A stretch of 52,917 nucleotides of DNA from Vicinamibacteria bacterium (GTDB lineage: Bacteria > Acidobacteriota > Vicinamibacteria > Vicinamibacterales > UBA8438): contig JAJEEA010000551.1 in the NCBI GenBank assembly GCA_022821235.1, positions 1 through 52,917 on the forward strand. The letters run 5' to 3'. The first letter of the stretch is position 1, and every line of letters starts with the position of its first letter. Positions 542-6,943 of this stretch are shown here, one piece after another. The notes beneath the pieces were generated by a model that saw only the letters and a program-made list of their open reading frames with translations, ran no database searches and was not told the origin of the DNA. A program made the position numbers and the translations under genes.

Positions 542-1168
542 ATGGCCTTCCTGTCGCCGCAGGTCGTGGCGGCGGTCATTCTACTCGCTGGCGGACTGGC
601 GGCTTGCTTCCTCGGCTACCGGCTGTTTCGTTGGCTGCTCGTGCTGTACGGGTTCGCGGGCGGCGCCTACGTCACGTCGCTGTTCGTCGGCACGCTGTCG
701 CCGTGGGTCGCGGCCGGGGTGGTCGTCCTGGGGGGGCTGGCCGGCGCCGCGGTGTCGCTGGTGCTCTATCTCGCGGCGGTGGCGGTGGCGGGCGCCGCGG
801 TCGGGGTGCTCGTCCTCAACCTCTCGTGGTCCCCGGCCTCCGGCGATCCGCAGGCCTGGATGGTGATTCTCGCGTGCCTGGTCGGCGCGAGCATCGCCGT
901 CGCGCTGCAACGCTACGTCATCATCGTCGGGACCGCCTTCGGGGGCGCGTGGACCGCCCTCGTCGGCGCCCTCGCTCTCGTGGGGCACCCCGGCGCGCGG
1001 GCGGTGACCGACGGCGACCTCTGGCAGATGTACCCCCTCGCCCCGGCCCGCGGCCAGGTGCCGTTCGCCATCGGGTGGCTCGGCCTGGGGCTCCTCGCGG
1101 CGCTGTGGCAACTGGTGGGGGCGCGTTCGGCGAAGCCGCCGCCGTCGCCGCCGGAGGCCGACATTTGA
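542..1168 (+). CDS. Multi-pass membrane protein, DUF4203/TMEM198-like
   Basis: MAFLSPQVVAAVILLAGGLAACFLGYRLFRWLLVLYGFAGGAYVTS..., repeated hydrophobic segments with Gly-rich motifs. Confidence 0.7.
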   Translation: MAFLSPQVVAAVILLAGGLAACFLGYRLFRWLLVLYGFAGGAYVTSLFVGTLSPWVAAGVVVLGGLAGAAVSLVLYLAAVAVAGAAVGVLVLNLSWSPASGDPQAWMVILACLVGASIAVALQRYVIIVGTAFGGAWTALVGALALVGHPGARAVTDGDLWQMYPLAPARGQVPFAIGWLGLGLLAALWQLVGARSAKPPPSPPEADI

Positions 1169-1257: not shown

Positions 1258-1333
1258 TCCTCAGTAGCTCAATTGGCAGAGCATCCGGCTGTTAACCGGA
1301 GGGTTGTTGGTTCGAGTCCAACCTGAGGAGCCA
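1258..1333 (+). tRNA. tRNA-Asn (anticodon GTT), CCA encoded
   Basis: Cloverleaf: acceptor TCCTCAG/CTGAGGA, D-loop TAGCTCAATTGGCAGAGCA, anticodon loop CTGTTAA, T-arm GGTTCGAGTCC, 3' GCCA; TATAAT-like box upstream. Confidence 0.95.
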
Positions 1334-1585: not shown

Positions 1586-3568
1586 TCAGCCCCGCCGGCC
1601 TCTCACTCTGAACCTGAACCGCTTGTCCGGAACGAAGGAAGGAAAGAGAACCCAACGGTCCGTCTTCAGCTCATAGGTCGGCGGAACCAGCTCCATGTCG
1701 ACCTCGTGCAGCAAGGTCGCGACAATCAACGGCAGTTGCGCTTCGGCGAACCCGCGGCCGGCGCAGTGGTGCACGCCCACGCCGAAAGGCACGAACACGC
1801 CCGGCTTCCTGTGTTCGTCACGCCCCGGAAGGTACCGGTCCACGTCGAACCGCTGCGGATCGGGAAAGTGCTCGGGCAGGTCATGCGTGACGAAGAAGGC
1901 GAGGAACAGGTCCTCGCCGGCGGGAATCCGGTGTCCGGCGAAGTCGAACGACGTGGTCACCTTGCGTTGAATCCCCGGGACCGGGGTGTACATGCGCAGC
2001 GCTTCCAGCATGATCCGGTACAGGACGTCCAGCTCGCGCACCTGCGCCGCGTCCGGCGTGCCGCCGGCGAACAGGGCATCGGCCTCGGCCTGCGCCCGTT
2101 CCCGCAACGCGGGGTCCTTCAGCACGACGTAGAGCATGCAGGCGCCGATGCTCCCCACCGTCTCGACGCCGGCGAACAGCGGCAGGAGCGCCGTGAGCGG
2201 CAGGTCGCACTCGGGGAGGAACGTCGGATCGGCGCGGTGCAGGGCGAGCATGTGGTCAATCGCGTTGGGCTTGCGGGCGTGCTGCTTCAACTGTTGTCTC
2301 GTCAACCACCTGTCCGACAGCTCCGCGGCCCGGCGAAGCGCGCGTCGCAGCCGGGGCGTTCTCGGCAACCGGGGCGTGTGCAGGAAGCCGCGGGTCACGG
2401 CCTCCCTCAGGACCAGGCGCACGTCGTCGATGTACTCGCCGGTCGACGACCGGGCGACGATGGCGCTCGTCGTCTCGCCGACCAGACGGAGCATGGCCGG
2501 CAGACCGGGCAACGGCGCGTCGAGCGGCATCTCGGCCAGGGACCGCCGGATGACCCGCACCGCTTCGGGGATCTCCGATTCGATGAGCTGGCGGGAGAAC
2601 CCGCCGCCGGTCTCGCGCCGCATCCGCACGTGGTCCTTGCCGTCCATGTTCAGCACGAAGCGCGAGGCGCCGAGCTCGGCACAGAGCGGGTCCCACATGT
2701 CGGACGTATGCAGATGCATGCGCTCCGAGCGAGACACGAACAGGTTGGCCTCCTGTCCGGCCATGGCGACGAAGTTGCGCGTCAACGTCCTGACCCTGAA
2801 GACGGGTCCCACGCGCAGGTGCTCCTGAACGAAGAAGGTCCTCGGGTCCCGGGCCACGGAGAGAGTGCTGCCCACCAGCGGCAGGCCGCGGGCCAGCGGC
2901 AGACCGGCGACGCGGTCGCGCGCGGTGCGCGCCGTCGGTCGCACGATTCTCACGAGCGTCGCGACGGCCCGGCCGATCAAGTCCAGGCGGCTGACGATCT
3001 CGATGCGCTTTCGCGCCCTGGCGAGCTCCTCTGCCGTGAGGAGCTTTCGCCAGACGTCGCAGGCGTCCACCAGGCTGATGATCACGATGTCCGCCGGATC
3101 CGGGATGTCGTCGCCGAACAGGACCCGCATGATGCGAAGCCTGACGTGCTCCGGCGCCGTTCCGTGCGTCGACGGATAGCGCCGCGCGTGCGCCACCTCC
3201 GGCGTCAGCGACAGGAACGCGTCGTCGCCGGGCTCGCGGAGAATGCCCCGCGAGACCAGCCGGGCAATCGCCCGCTCGCGGATCTCGTGCCCCCGCCGGG
3301 CCGTGCGTTCCACCCAGTACAGCGCATCGTGCGTGTCTTCCGCGCCGACGATGTCGGCCAGCGTGGGGTCGAGCACGTCGTCGCCGAGCGGCGTTGGATT
3401 GCTGGGCGTGAGGTGGTCCAGGTCGGTGTCGATGCGATTCGCCAACTGCAGGTCCATCAACACCGCACCCGCGAGAACCAGATGCTCCGTACGTTCGGTC
3501 ATCGGGAGGAGCGTGCCGTGTTGCTCGTCCAGGAGAAACAGCAGGAGCTCTTCGGCGGCAAGCAGCAT
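1586..3568 (-). CDS. GPP34 (GOLPH3/Vps74-like) domain - cytochrome P450 fusion protein
   Basis: N-term LLAAEELLLFLLDEQHGTLLP...YHLAGAVLMDLQLANRID-type pattern with PLGDDVLDPTLADI matches the GPP34 family; C-term P450 with I-helix FAGVET, EALR (ExxR) and FVPFGVGVHHCAG heme-Cys motif; start ATG overlaps upstream stop (TGATG). Confidence 0.85.
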   Translation of the reverse strand: MLLAAEELLLFLLDEQHGTLLPMTERTEHLVLAGAVLMDLQLANRIDTDLDHLTPSNPTPLGDDVLDPTLADIVGAEDTHDALYWVERTARRGHEIRERAIARLVSRGILREPGDDAFLSLTPEVAHARRYPSTHGTAPEHVRLRIMRVLFGDDIPDPADIVIISLVDACDVWRKLLTAEELARARKRIEIVSRLDLIGRAVATLVRIVRPTARTARDRVAGLPLARGLPLVGSTLSVARDPRTFFVQEHLRVGPVFRVRTLTRNFVAMAGQEANLFVSRSERMHLHTSDMWDPLCAELGASRFVLNMDGKDHVRMRRETGGGFSRQLIESEIPEAVRVIRRSLAEMPLDAPLPGLPAMLRLVGETTSAIVARSSTGEYIDDVRLVLREAVTRGFLHTPRLPRTPRLRRALRRAAELSDRWLTRQQLKQHARKPNAIDHMLALHRADPTFLPECDLPLTALLPLFAGVETVGSIGACMLYVVLKDPALRERAQAEADALFAGGTPDAAQVRELDVLYRIMLEALRMYTPVPGIQRKVTTSFDFAGHRIPAGEDLFLAFFVTHDLPEHFPDPQRFDVDRYLPGRDEHRKPGVFVPFGVGVHHCAGRGFAEAQLPLIVATLLHEVDMELVPPTYELKTDRWVLFPSFVPDKRFRFRVRGRRG

Positions 3569-4125
3569 CACCCACGCTCCCGGTCGGTCACTCGATGCGC
3601 CGCGGCATTCGGGCGTGTGCGGTCCTGGCCGCCACCGAGCCTCTCGAGCGCCCTGTTCTCGACCTGCAGGCGCGCGCGGAGCACCACCAGGTTCAATACC
3701 GAAGCTGCCACGGCCAGGACCCAGGCGCCGAACATCAGCGGCACCACCGCCATCTCGCCGCACACGATGACGTAGTTGGGATGCCTGAGGTAGCGGTACG
3801 GGCCGCTGCGGACGGGCGCGGCGCCCGGCAGCACCACGATACGCGTCGTCCAGCGCGAGCCCAACGTGGCGAGCACCCATGCGCGTCCGTACTGCAGCAG
3901 CACGAAGACCGCGAGCAACGGCAACGACGGCGCCGTCCGCGGATCGATCGTCGCCGCCAGGGCCAGCAACCAGCCGGCGTGCAGGGCGACCATCGCCGGG
4001 TAGTGCGCCTGGCCGACCTCCACGCCGCCGCGAGCCAGGAGCGCCCGGTGGTTGCGGCGGGCGAAGCCCAGCTCGGCCAGCCGCTGAACCACGAGGAAGC
4101 CGACGATGAGGTACACGGCGGGCAT
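3568..4125 (-). CDS. Isoprenylcysteine carboxyl methyltransferase (ICMT)-like membrane methyltransferase (BpsB/YpbQ type)
   Basis: MPAVYLIVGFLVVQRLAELGFARRNHRALLARGGVEVG...GPYRYLRHPNYVIVCGEM...; directly downstream of a type III PKS. Confidence 0.85.
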   Translation of the reverse strand: MPAVYLIVGFLVVQRLAELGFARRNHRALLARGGVEVGQAHYPAMVALHAGWLLALAATIDPRTAPSLPLLAVFVLLQYGRAWVLATLGSRWTTRIVVLPGAAPVRSGPYRYLRHPNYVIVCGEMAVVPLMFGAWVLAVAASVLNLVVLRARLQVENRALERLGGGQDRTRPNAAAHRVTDRERG

Positions 4126-5210
4126 CAGGCCGACTCCAGCACCAGGTACCCGATGGAGAAGCCGGGCCCCAGCCCCGTCATCAGATAGCGCCGTGCCCTT
4201 TCGTGCCGCCCGTTGTCGGCGGTCCCGGTCATGAGGGCGCGCTTCAGGATGAAGAGCACCGTGGCCGCCGACATGTTGCCGTAGTCGCGCAGAATCTCGC
4301 GCGACGCCGCGAGGCCGCCGGACGGGAGACCGAAGGCGTCTTCCAGGGCCTTCAGCACCCTGGTCCCGCCGGGGTGGCAGATGAAGTCGTCGACGTCCGC
4401 GAGCTCGAGCCCGACGGAAGCGAGAAACTCGTCGGTGACGCGCCGCACCCGGTGCCGGGCGACGTCGGGAACGCCGCGCGACAGCCGCACCTCCAGCCCG
4501 TTCTGCGTGACGTGCCAGCCCATGACGTCGAGGCTGCGGGGCCAGGTGTGCTCGCCCCAGGCCCTGATCGCGGGCCCCGGCCCGTCCGTGGTCAGCACCG
4601 CGCCCGCCGCGCCGTCGCCGAAGAGAGCGGTGGCGACGACGTTCGCGGTCATCTGGTCGCCGCGGCAGAACGTGAGCGTGCAGAGCTCGACGACCAGAAG
4701 CAGGATGCAACTGCCGGGCTGGGCGCGCGCCCAGGCGGCGGCGCGCGCCAGCCCCAGGGCCCCGCCCGCGCATCCGAGGCCGAACAGCGGCAGGCGCTGC
4801 ACGTTGCGCCGAAAGGGCAGCTCCTCCATCAGCCGGACATCCAGCGTGGGTACGGCGACGCCGGTCGACGAGACGGTGACGAGCGTGTCGACGTCGCGGC
4901 ACGTCCGGCCGGCGACGGCCAGGCTGTCGAGGGTCACCTGCTTGAGCAGGTCGATGGCCCTGTCGATGTACAGATTGTTCTTCACCTCGAAGCTGTGGTC
5001 CCGCTCGTACCAATGGACGGGAGCAGCGGCGTACCGCGTCTCGATGTCGGCGTTCAGGAAGACCTGCTTCAGACGGCCCCGCTTGGCCGGCGGAATGTCG
5101 AACGACCGCTGGAAGAACGCCATCGCCTCGTCCTGAGGGACCCGGTGGGGCGGCACCGCGGTAGCGAGCGACGCGATTCGCGGCCAGGGTTGGTTGGACC
5201 CTGCCGTCAT
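4125..5210 (-). CDS. Type III polyketide synthase (chalcone/stilbene synthase superfamily)
   Basis: Catalytic triad visible: GLGCAGGALGL (Cys), FICHPGG (His), YGNMSAAT (Asn); C-term TGLGPGFSIGYLVLE. Confidence 0.93.
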   Translation of the reverse strand: MTAGSNQPWPRIASLATAVPPHRVPQDEAMAFFQRSFDIPPAKRGRLKQVFLNADIETRYAAAPVHWYERDHSFEVKNNLYIDRAIDLLKQVTLDSLAVAGRTCRDVDTLVTVSSTGVAVPTLDVRLMEELPFRRNVQRLPLFGLGCAGGALGLARAAAWARAQPGSCILLLVVELCTLTFCRGDQMTANVVATALFGDGAAGAVLTTDGPGPAIRAWGEHTWPRSLDVMGWHVTQNGLEVRLSRGVPDVARHRVRRVTDEFLASVGLELADVDDFICHPGGTRVLKALEDAFGLPSGGLAASREILRDYGNMSAATVLFILKRALMTGTADNGRHERARRYLMTGLGPGFSIGYLVLESA

Positions 5211-6943
5211 CGGGTGAGCTCCGCGCGCATCGGGTCGGAGGAAGCGGGCCCCGGGTGGGCGTCGCCGCGGCCGGACGCGAACAGCCACCGGGTCAGCCTG
5301 CTCCGCTTGAGGCTGCGTCTTCCGAGCGCCCCGATCGCCACGCCCCAGATGGCGGACCGCAGCAGCCCGCCCAACTGGACCGGGTCGAGCCACGACCGCA
5401 CGCCCGCCGTCCACAGGAGCCGCAGGCGCAGGGCGACCATGTGTCGGAACATCCGAGACAACGAGCGCGGGATCTCGTCGTCGCGGCAGTGCTCGAACCA
5501 GGAGTGGTTCATCGCGAAGGCCGAATGCACCCTGACGCCGGCGCCGACCGGTGGCGAGGGCCGTCGCGCGGCCGCCCGGGCAATGAGCGGCTCGAAGTCG
5601 GTCAACTGCCGGCCCAGCCCGTGCGCGGGCCCTCCCAGACGGGCCATCATCGCCGCGCCGACGGCATCGGCGTGATAGCCGTTGAGCAGCAGCGGCAGCG
5701 CCATGTGAAAGAAGCCGATCACGTGGAGGTGCATGCGCAGGCGGCACTGATAGCCGGCCCGCATGACGTCGTACAGCCTCGCGACCTGTCCCTCCCCCAG
5801 TTCCTGAAAACCGGCGTAGGCCCGGTCGAGCCTGCCGACGAATCCCTCGGTCAAGCTGCCGGCCTGGTCGCGACGGACGATGGCCCCCACCTGCTGAATC
5901 GCCATGGTCGCGAGTGCAAGACCGGTGCTGTACAGCGGATCCACGGTATCCGCGGCGTCCCCGACAATGAACCACCCCTGGGAGGAGTATCTCCGCCGGG
6001 TGCGGTACATGTAGTTCCGGTACAGGTTGGTGTCGACGACCCACCCGCTCCGGACCAGGTCTCCCAGGATCGGGTGCTCGCCCGCCACCCGGTCGAGGAA
6101 CTCCGGTATGGTCGTCACGGGCTCGGGAAACAGGTCCGGCCGGCAGGTCAGCCCGACGCTCATCATCTGCCTGCCCGTTTCCGCCCGCACCGGAATCAAC
6201 CAGATCCAGTTGCCGCGTCCGAAGAAGTGGTGCGTGGCATAGTACGCGTCAGGGCGGCGGGCATCGCTCGTGACGGGGTCGATGCGGTCGAGAATGGACG
6301 GGTCGAAGTCGGCCAGGCGGAACCAGAACGAGCTGCGCTGGTGCGGGACGCGGTCGCCGAGGTGCAGTTGGCGGGCCAGCAGTCGGCGCCGTCCGGTGGC
6401 GTCTATCGCCCAGCGGGCCGTGTGCGTTCGTTCCCTCCCGTCGGCGTCCCGCACCGTGACCCTGTGCCGCGCGCCCGAGCCCAGCTTGACCCGCACCACC
6501 TTGCCGTCGACGTGCTCGACGCCGTTGTCCCGATTGAGTTGCCGCAACGCTTCGTCCAGAGTGAACCGGTTGACGAGAAACGCCGGCAGCGGCGGATTGG
6601 TGGGGACGGCGTCGACGACATAGCGCGGGTCCGCGGGAGCCGTGGGATCCACCTTGTAGTAGAACGTGAGGCCGTACTTGGGAAGCTGCTCCTCGACGAG
6701 ATGCCGCCCAAGACCGATCTCCTGGAGAAGTTGCGTACTGAACTCGACCAGCGACTCGCCCACGATGGGCAGGGTCCGGGCCGCCGGTCCCACGACGTTG
6801 ACGTGCAGAGCGGGCATGTGTCGGGCGAACCAGGCAGCCGCGAGGTTCCCCACGATGCCGTTTCCCATGATCAGCACGTCACAATCCACTCTGGCCACGC
6901 GGTGCTCCTCGAACAGGTGCGTCTGCCTCGGCGGCGTCCGCAT
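5207..6943 (-). CDS. Flavin-dependent halogenase-like FAD monooxygenase
   Basis: GNGIVGN dinucleotide-binding motif, VGESLVEF, GNWIWLIP (WxWxIP halogenase signature), GDAADTVDPLYSTG; ATGA overlap with PKS. Confidence 0.75.
   Translation of the reverse strand: MRTPPRQTHLFEEHRVARVDCDVLIMGNGIVGNLAAAWFARHMPALHVNVVGPAARTLPIVGESLVEFSTQLLQEIGLGRHLVEEQLPKYGLTFYYKVDPTAPADPRYVVDAVPTNPPLPAFLVNRFTLDEALRQLNRDNGVEHVDGKVVRVKLGSGARHRVTVRDADGRERTHTARWAIDATGRRRLLARQLHLGDRVPHQRSSFWFRLADFDPSILDRIDPVTSDARRPDAYYATHHFFGRGNWIWLIPVRAETGRQMMSVGLTCRPDLFPEPVTTIPEFLDRVAGEHPILGDLVRSGWVVDTNLYRNYMYRTRRRYSSQGWFIVGDAADTVDPLYSTGLALATMAIQQVGAIVRRDQAGSLTEGFVGRLDRAYAGFQELGEGQVARLYDVMRAGYQCRLRMHLHVIGFFHMALPLLLNGYHADAVGAAMMARLGGPAHGLGRQLTDFEPLIARAAARRPSPPVGAGVRVHSAFAMNHSWFEHCRDDEIPRSLSRMFRHMVALRLRLLWTAGVRSWLDPVQLGGLLRSAIWGVAIGALGRRSLKRSRLTRWLFASGRGDAHPGPASSDPMRAELTR

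Follow-up and report, generated by a model that had tools for sequence, protein, structure and literature searches.

Many eukaryotic cytochromes P450 are seated in the membrane by an N-terminal helix that is followed by a proline-rich hinge. Known P450 fusions join the enzyme to redox partners or to other enzymes, and we know of none with a Golgi-type adaptor domain. The GPP34 domain (PF05719) is such an adaptor in GOLPH3, which binds PI4P through residues W81, R90, R171, N172 and R174 (PMC12494035, PMC13408441) and whose electronegative face, held above the membrane, binds the basic tails of Golgi enzymes (PMC12494035). GOLPH3-like proteins were stated to be undescribed in prokaryotes in a 2025 paper on SCO4440 of Streptomyces, for which the reported phenotype concerns peptidoglycan and wall-deficient cells (PMC12402492). 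Our literature search found no lipid-binding biochemistry for bacterial GPP34 proteins, and this cell-wall paper was the sole bacterial study recovered (PMC12402492). Among lipid operons, a planctomycete cluster of polyketide synthase (PKS), methyltransferase and oxidoreductase genes makes alkylresorcinols (PMC10896814).

Here we describe a GPP34-P450 fusion from a Vicinamibacteria genome, encoded within a contig of 52,917 nucleotides (JAJEEA010000551.1; hereafter the window). The fusion gene occupies positions 1586–3568 of the minus strand, with its ATG at 3568 and its stop codon ending at 1586, and is one open reading frame that places both domains in a single 660-aa product, just as the initial annotation, which named no strand, had read it. 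The protein comprises a GPP34 domain (residues 5–207; 2948–3556), a linker (residues 208–221; 2906–2947) and a complete-looking P450 domain (residues 222–660, approximately; 1589–2905), all on the minus strand. In the HMM searches proposed by that annotation, which had made its reading depend on a GPP34 match within residues 1–200, both domains scored far above the gathering (curated) cut-offs of Pfam (29.1 bits for GPP34 and 22.8 bits for p450). The hmmscan match to PF05719, at residues 5–207, has an E-value of 4.7e-31 and 108.9 bits and covers profile positions 2–199 of 201, while that to PF00067 has an E-value of 7.6e-43 and 147.4 bits, with its best stretch at residues 424–639.

The GPP34 part alone was modelled by AF2 with a pLDDT of 90 and a pTM of 0.87, and a PDB fold search with this model returned only GOLPH3/Vps74 at E < 0.001 (E 2.1e-7, probability 1.00). 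Human GOLPH3 was also found by a profile search, at 1.5e-10. A chance match to GPP34 is thus ruled out by Pfam, profile search and fold. For the full fusion protein, the model has a pLDDT of 79.8 and a pTM of 0.69, with a linker pLDDT below 50, and the predicted placement of GPP34 relative to the P450 is uncertain. The flexible linker is followed by an LPLARGLPLVG segment. By hydropathy, no N-terminal transmembrane segment was found in the fusion protein; a hidden anchor there was rejected, and the most hydrophobic stretch falls in the I-helix region.

The P450 half carries the haem-ligand Cys (FGVGVHHCAG), the ExxR motif (EALR) and, in the I-helix, the acid-Thr pair that serves oxygen activation (AGVET), each as first annotated (FAGVET, EALR, FGVGVHHCAG). 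PDB fold matches of the full model are P450s at E-values of about 1e-16; among the best are the oleic acid complex of CYP184A1 and the lanosterol complex of CYP51. Under CYP nomenclature, members of a family share about 40% identity. The best structural match to a CYP51 is only 24% identical to the window protein, and membership of CYP51 was therefore rejected.

We examined whether the PI4P-binding residues of GOLPH3 are kept in the GPP34 half. In the alignment, the window equivalents of W81, R90, R171, N172 and R174 are M23, A33, H94, E95 and R97. Across 28 fusion sequences, the R90 position is Ala in every case, the W81 position is never Trp, the R171 position is mostly acidic and R174 is the only residue kept, in 14. 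A conserved PI4P pocket was looked for and not found, as three of four PI4P residues (W81, R90 and R171) are absent or variable. The domain is also strongly acidic in nearly all 33 sequences examined. Its net charge is −11 in the window protein, and the other fusions range from −7 to −25 apart from two with values near zero. Together, the unconserved pocket and the acidity make electrostatic binding to anionic lipid unlikely. At the residue level, a phosphoinositide tether, and with it the phospholipid binding that the initial annotation had carried over from known GPP34 proteins, is not supported by the alignment. The hairpin tip of GOLPH3 (F194–F197) has largely hydrophobic equivalents, and most fusions have an insertion of four to five residues in the hairpin region relative to stand-alone bacterial GPP34. 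In the window protein, the hydrophobic tip is kept (FLSL for FLLF), with the insertion and a short helix after it.

The fusion is the last of four minus-strand genes in the window, following those for a FAD enzyme of the halogenase/monooxygenase superfamily (5207–6943), a type III PKS (4125–5210) and a membrane methyltransferase of the ICMT (isoprenylcysteine-type) family (185 aa; 3568–4125). The stop codon of one gene overlaps the start codon of the next in ATGA at the flavoenzyme–PKS junction and in TGATG at the PKS–ICMT junction, and the start codon of the fusion shares a base with the ICMT stop (TGATG). With overlapping starts and stops at all three junctions, the four genes look like one translationally coupled operon, which bears out the type III PKS operon that had initially been proposed. 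The PKS has Cys, His and Asn motifs (GCAGG, CHPGG and GNMS), and the solved structures nearest to it are Pks11 and CylI. On the strength of these relatives and of the comparable planctomycete operon (PMC10896814), the expected substrate in the window operon would be an alkylresorcinol- or alkylpyrone-type lipid.

The flavoenzyme matches Trp_halogenase (E 3.3e-14) and has GxGxxG and WIWLIP motifs. The WxWxIP motif, which is typical of flavin halogenases, was found in three of five homologues checked; from its motifs, the enzyme may act either as a halogenase or as a halogenase-like hydroxylase. A tRNA-Asn gene (1258–1333, plus strand) can be found directly downstream of the operon, and a gene for a TM198-like membrane protein lies at 542–1165 (plus strand).

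GPP34-P450 fusions are present in at least 28 genomes from three Acidobacteriota families and from gammaproteobacteria of the order Pseudomonadales; these comprise 21 genomes, in which 30 fusion genes were analysed, and seven more that carry fusions by BLAST. A search of 60 related genomes recovered full-length fusions at 94, 89, 88, 81, 80 and 74% identity in independent assemblies, together with more distant ones at 33–47% identity, including a second copy in the window's own genome (contig C329). The named relatives with the fusion are Vicinamibacteria and Acidobacteria MAGs. In a survey of the phylum with the GPP34 part (396 genomes), many further frames of 670–812 aa were found in two other families, and a P450 was present in all 14 long-frame loci checked (L052–L065). 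The fusion also occurs on contigs of 4.3 Mb and 3.9 Mb; the former is the chromosome-scale Pseudomonadales record OY282455.1 (43% identity), and an order survey around this genome gave four more with confirmed fusions (G509, G538, G590 and G693). Both domains were above the Pfam cut-offs in all six distant members scanned. Across 399 Pseudomonadota genomes, GPP34 was found in seven and a fusion-length frame in the starting genome only, so this is a rare architecture in that group. When plasmids were searched for the fusion in other phyla, no record spanned both GPP34 and P450.

These surveys also brought up several related genes. The closest GPP34-less P450 in the plasmid collection is on plasmid p2 of Planktothrix agardhii (L115; NZ_LR882940.1), where it clusters with terpene-cyclase and squalene-synthase-family genes and several P450s in a candidate plasmid-borne triterpenoid pathway. 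One GPP34-P450 copy (L034, 8072–9870; G018:C28) is broken over several frames and lies among short fragments. GPP34 proteins of 400 aa in Pseudomonadales were considered as other fusions and discarded, as no second Pfam domain was found in them. At L106 (6368–10384) and L099 (5014–7674), both in Pseudomonadales, the GPP34 protein is longer by about 190 residues that belong to no Pfam family, and it adjoins a multihaem cytochrome c; at L106 it also adjoins a separate P450.

From 47 rows of the P450 part, maximum likelihood gave a tree in which all fusions form one clade with eight GPP34-less P450s (support 99/98), and the GPP34-less group is nested within it as sister to the second-copy type of G000 and G001 (98/95). 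The simplest reading of this tree is one fusion event followed by one later loss of GPP34; resolution is weak at several of the deep forks, and the tree contains some long branches. Distances in the GPP34 and P450 parts are correlated (Mantel r 0.85, 0 of 2000 permutations; rank correlation 0.49), which is what two parts inherited together should show. Between the window gene and that of G001, dN/dS is 0.177 for GPP34, 0.184 for the P450 and 0.42 for the linker. Values near 0.18 were obtained for both domains in four of five close pairs (0.30 for GPP34 and 0.16 for the P450 in the fifth), and those of the linker range from 0.4 to 1.1. Judged by these ratios, both domains are under similar purifying selection and the linker is not, which indicates that the GPP34 half is kept by selection and is not decaying baggage. 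The eight GPP34-less relatives retain intact P450 motifs, so that GPP34 is probably dispensable for P450 catalysis in general.

The window assembly is fragmented (6.6 Mb in 552 contigs, of which the window is contig C390), and the initial annotation had named an assembly artefact as one finding that would undo its reading. The same full-length architecture in independent assemblies, including chromosome-scale contigs, excludes both chance and mis-assembly, and the fusion is under purifying selection. Given the 30 analysed genes from 21 genomes and the seven genomes added by BLAST, we attach practically no credence to an assembly or frameshift artefact.

Gene neighbourhoods were called with a simple codon-usage script, so that gene ends are approximate. 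Class I comprises seven genes of the window type, which have the flavoenzyme, PKS and ICMT genes alongside the fusion, except that the C168 copy of G023 is without the flavoenzyme and one contig ends inside the ICMT gene. ICMT adjoins the fusion in all seven of these loci. Within the family, all six PKS genes at 73% identity or above are in a GPP34-P450 operon. More distant PKS genes (n = 10, 38–43% identity) are of a different kind, and ICMT, flavoenzyme and GPP34-P450 genes were absent from the flanks (about 1.5 kb) of all eight that were checked. The co-occurrence with type III PKS that the initial annotation had suggested surveying thus holds for the branch of the window and fails for the architecture as a whole.

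Class II loci (L029, L046, L071, L074 and L079) carry a Sulfotransfer_3 gene, to which L071 adds a squalene-hopene cyclase, L079 a fragment of a cyclase and L046 genes for sulfate activation. Class III loci (L035, L070 with two fusions, L072, L076, L078, L097, L100, L101 and L114) have varying combinations of a sterol-type methyltransferase, a KshA-type Rieske oxygenase, an amine-oxidase-type flavoenzyme and an RND pump. RND pumps also adjoin the fusions at L030, L033, L077 and L102, and acyl-CoA-ligase-like genes adjoin those at L031 and L032. As a raw count, RND adjacency recurs in about a dozen loci. No lipid-type or RND neighbour was seen at L075 and L103, and none of the lipid-type or RND neighbours of the fusion family was detected beside the GPP34-less relatives. 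Most fusion copies adjoin lipid-pathway or efflux genes. The earlier idea of a lipophilic substrate gains support from the PKS operon of the window and from the squalene-hopene cyclase, sterol-type methyltransferase, sulfotransferase and RND genes beside other branches.

At L070 (7643–13086; G206), two different, convergent GPP34-P450s are clustered with Rieske, amine oxidase and RND genes. Thirteen GPP34-P450s, mostly of class III (those at the class III loci listed above and at L033, L077 and L102), have a one-residue deletion in the I-helix and are without the acid-Thr pair (AGH-YTG, ASI-YLG). As the haem Cys is kept in these proteins, the deletion and loss of the pair suggest an unusual P450 reaction.

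We propose, at roughly even chances, that GPP34 docks the P450 at the membrane as a peripheral protein, near the lipid products of the neighbouring enzymes. GPP34 would take the place of the N-terminal anchor of a membrane-bound P450, and could dock with its flat face and the hydrophobic region of its hairpin, by gripping a basic segment of a membrane protein, or in both ways; such docking would hold the access channel of the P450 at the lipid surface. In the window operon, the PKS would make a long-chain phenolic or pyrone lipid that the flavoenzyme, the membrane methyltransferase and the GPP34-P450 may then tailor within the membrane. Such tethering by GPP34 is plausible. The missing PI4P residues and the acidity of the domain make a serious rival of a reading in which GPP34 is mainly a protein adaptor that binds a partner (ICMT here, RND pumps elsewhere) at a basic cytosolic segment and brings the P450 into a biosynthesis or export complex. 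GOLPH3 uses its acidic face in a comparable manner, to bind Golgi enzymes by their short basic tails (PMC12494035, PMC13408441), the gene next to the fusion often encodes a membrane protein, and the client-binding D247 position of GOLPH3 is Asp in 15 of 28 fusions. The client-contact position D273 is, however, mostly Lys or Arg, bulk negative charge is common in bacterial proteins and no single partner family is common to all loci; we consider a role mainly as adaptor possible but rather unlikely.

The opposite net charges within the window protein (GPP34 −11, P450 +11) and the similar constraint on both domains could instead reflect an intramolecular structural or redox-docking module, which would pack on the basic P450 and control electron delivery or stability without any membrane role. 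We find this improbable, as charge pairing fails in some members (the P450 of L046 is at +1 and that of L032 at −2), the linker varies and is modelled with low confidence, and GPP34 is without a known redox role. It is more doubtful still that the lipid product or substrate is bound by GPP34 itself and passed on to the P450, close to the presentation of lipid substrates that the initial annotation had imagined. The lipophilic pathways around the fusions would suit such a hand-over, but the alignment gives no sign of a conserved cavity, we found no evidence for presentation and we know of no carrier function for the GPP34 fold.

Membrane docking of the P450 by GPP34 could have wider relevance. 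Bacterial GPP34/GOLPH3 domains might serve generally to place biosynthetic enzymes at membranes, with GPP34-P450 as the covalent version of the non-covalent role of GOLPH3 and possibly as a trace of an ancestral, pre-eukaryote role; we consider this possible but rather unlikely. Literature on GPP34 and P450 together yielded insect and Bt papers only, none of which joined the two for bacteria. Each domain is known. New to us are the pairing of the two, how old it is and the lipid settings in which it occurs, although architecture databases may already contain it. With an enzyme that can be assayed and with relatives that have lost GPP34, this natural fusion makes the function of bacterial GPP34 directly testable. 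The fusion also points to a set of lipid, terpenoid and possibly sulfated-lipid gene clusters that are still unexplored, in Acidobacteriota and gammaproteobacteria that have not been cultured.

Among known systems, GOLPH3/Vps74 resembles the GPP34 half in Pfam family, fold, acidity and position of the hydrophobic hairpin tip, whereas the bacterial domain has no COPI or Golgi context, is without equivalents of W81, R90 and R171, and is fused to an enzyme. Stand-alone bacterial GPP34 proteins have the same domain without a P450; five such rows from the surveyed genomes are 36–47% identical to the GPP34 of the window, and Streptomyces SCO4440 (PMC12402492) is a published example. The nearest solved relatives of the P450 half by sequence and fold are the lipid P450s Methylococcus CYP51, CYP184A1 and CYP120A1, which at about 23–24% identity are too distant for a shared CYP family; none has GPP34, and Methylococcus CYP51 is fused to ferredoxin instead. 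The operon is closest to the hid (hierridin) and planctomycete alkylresorcinol operons (PMC10896814). Although gene order differs, no P450 is mentioned for those operons (PMC10896814) and the likeness of methyltransferase and flavoenzyme is one of enzyme type, the window operon has the srs/hid-type composition, in which a type III PKS with Cys-His-Asn, a methyltransferase and a FAD oxidoreductase are encoded together.
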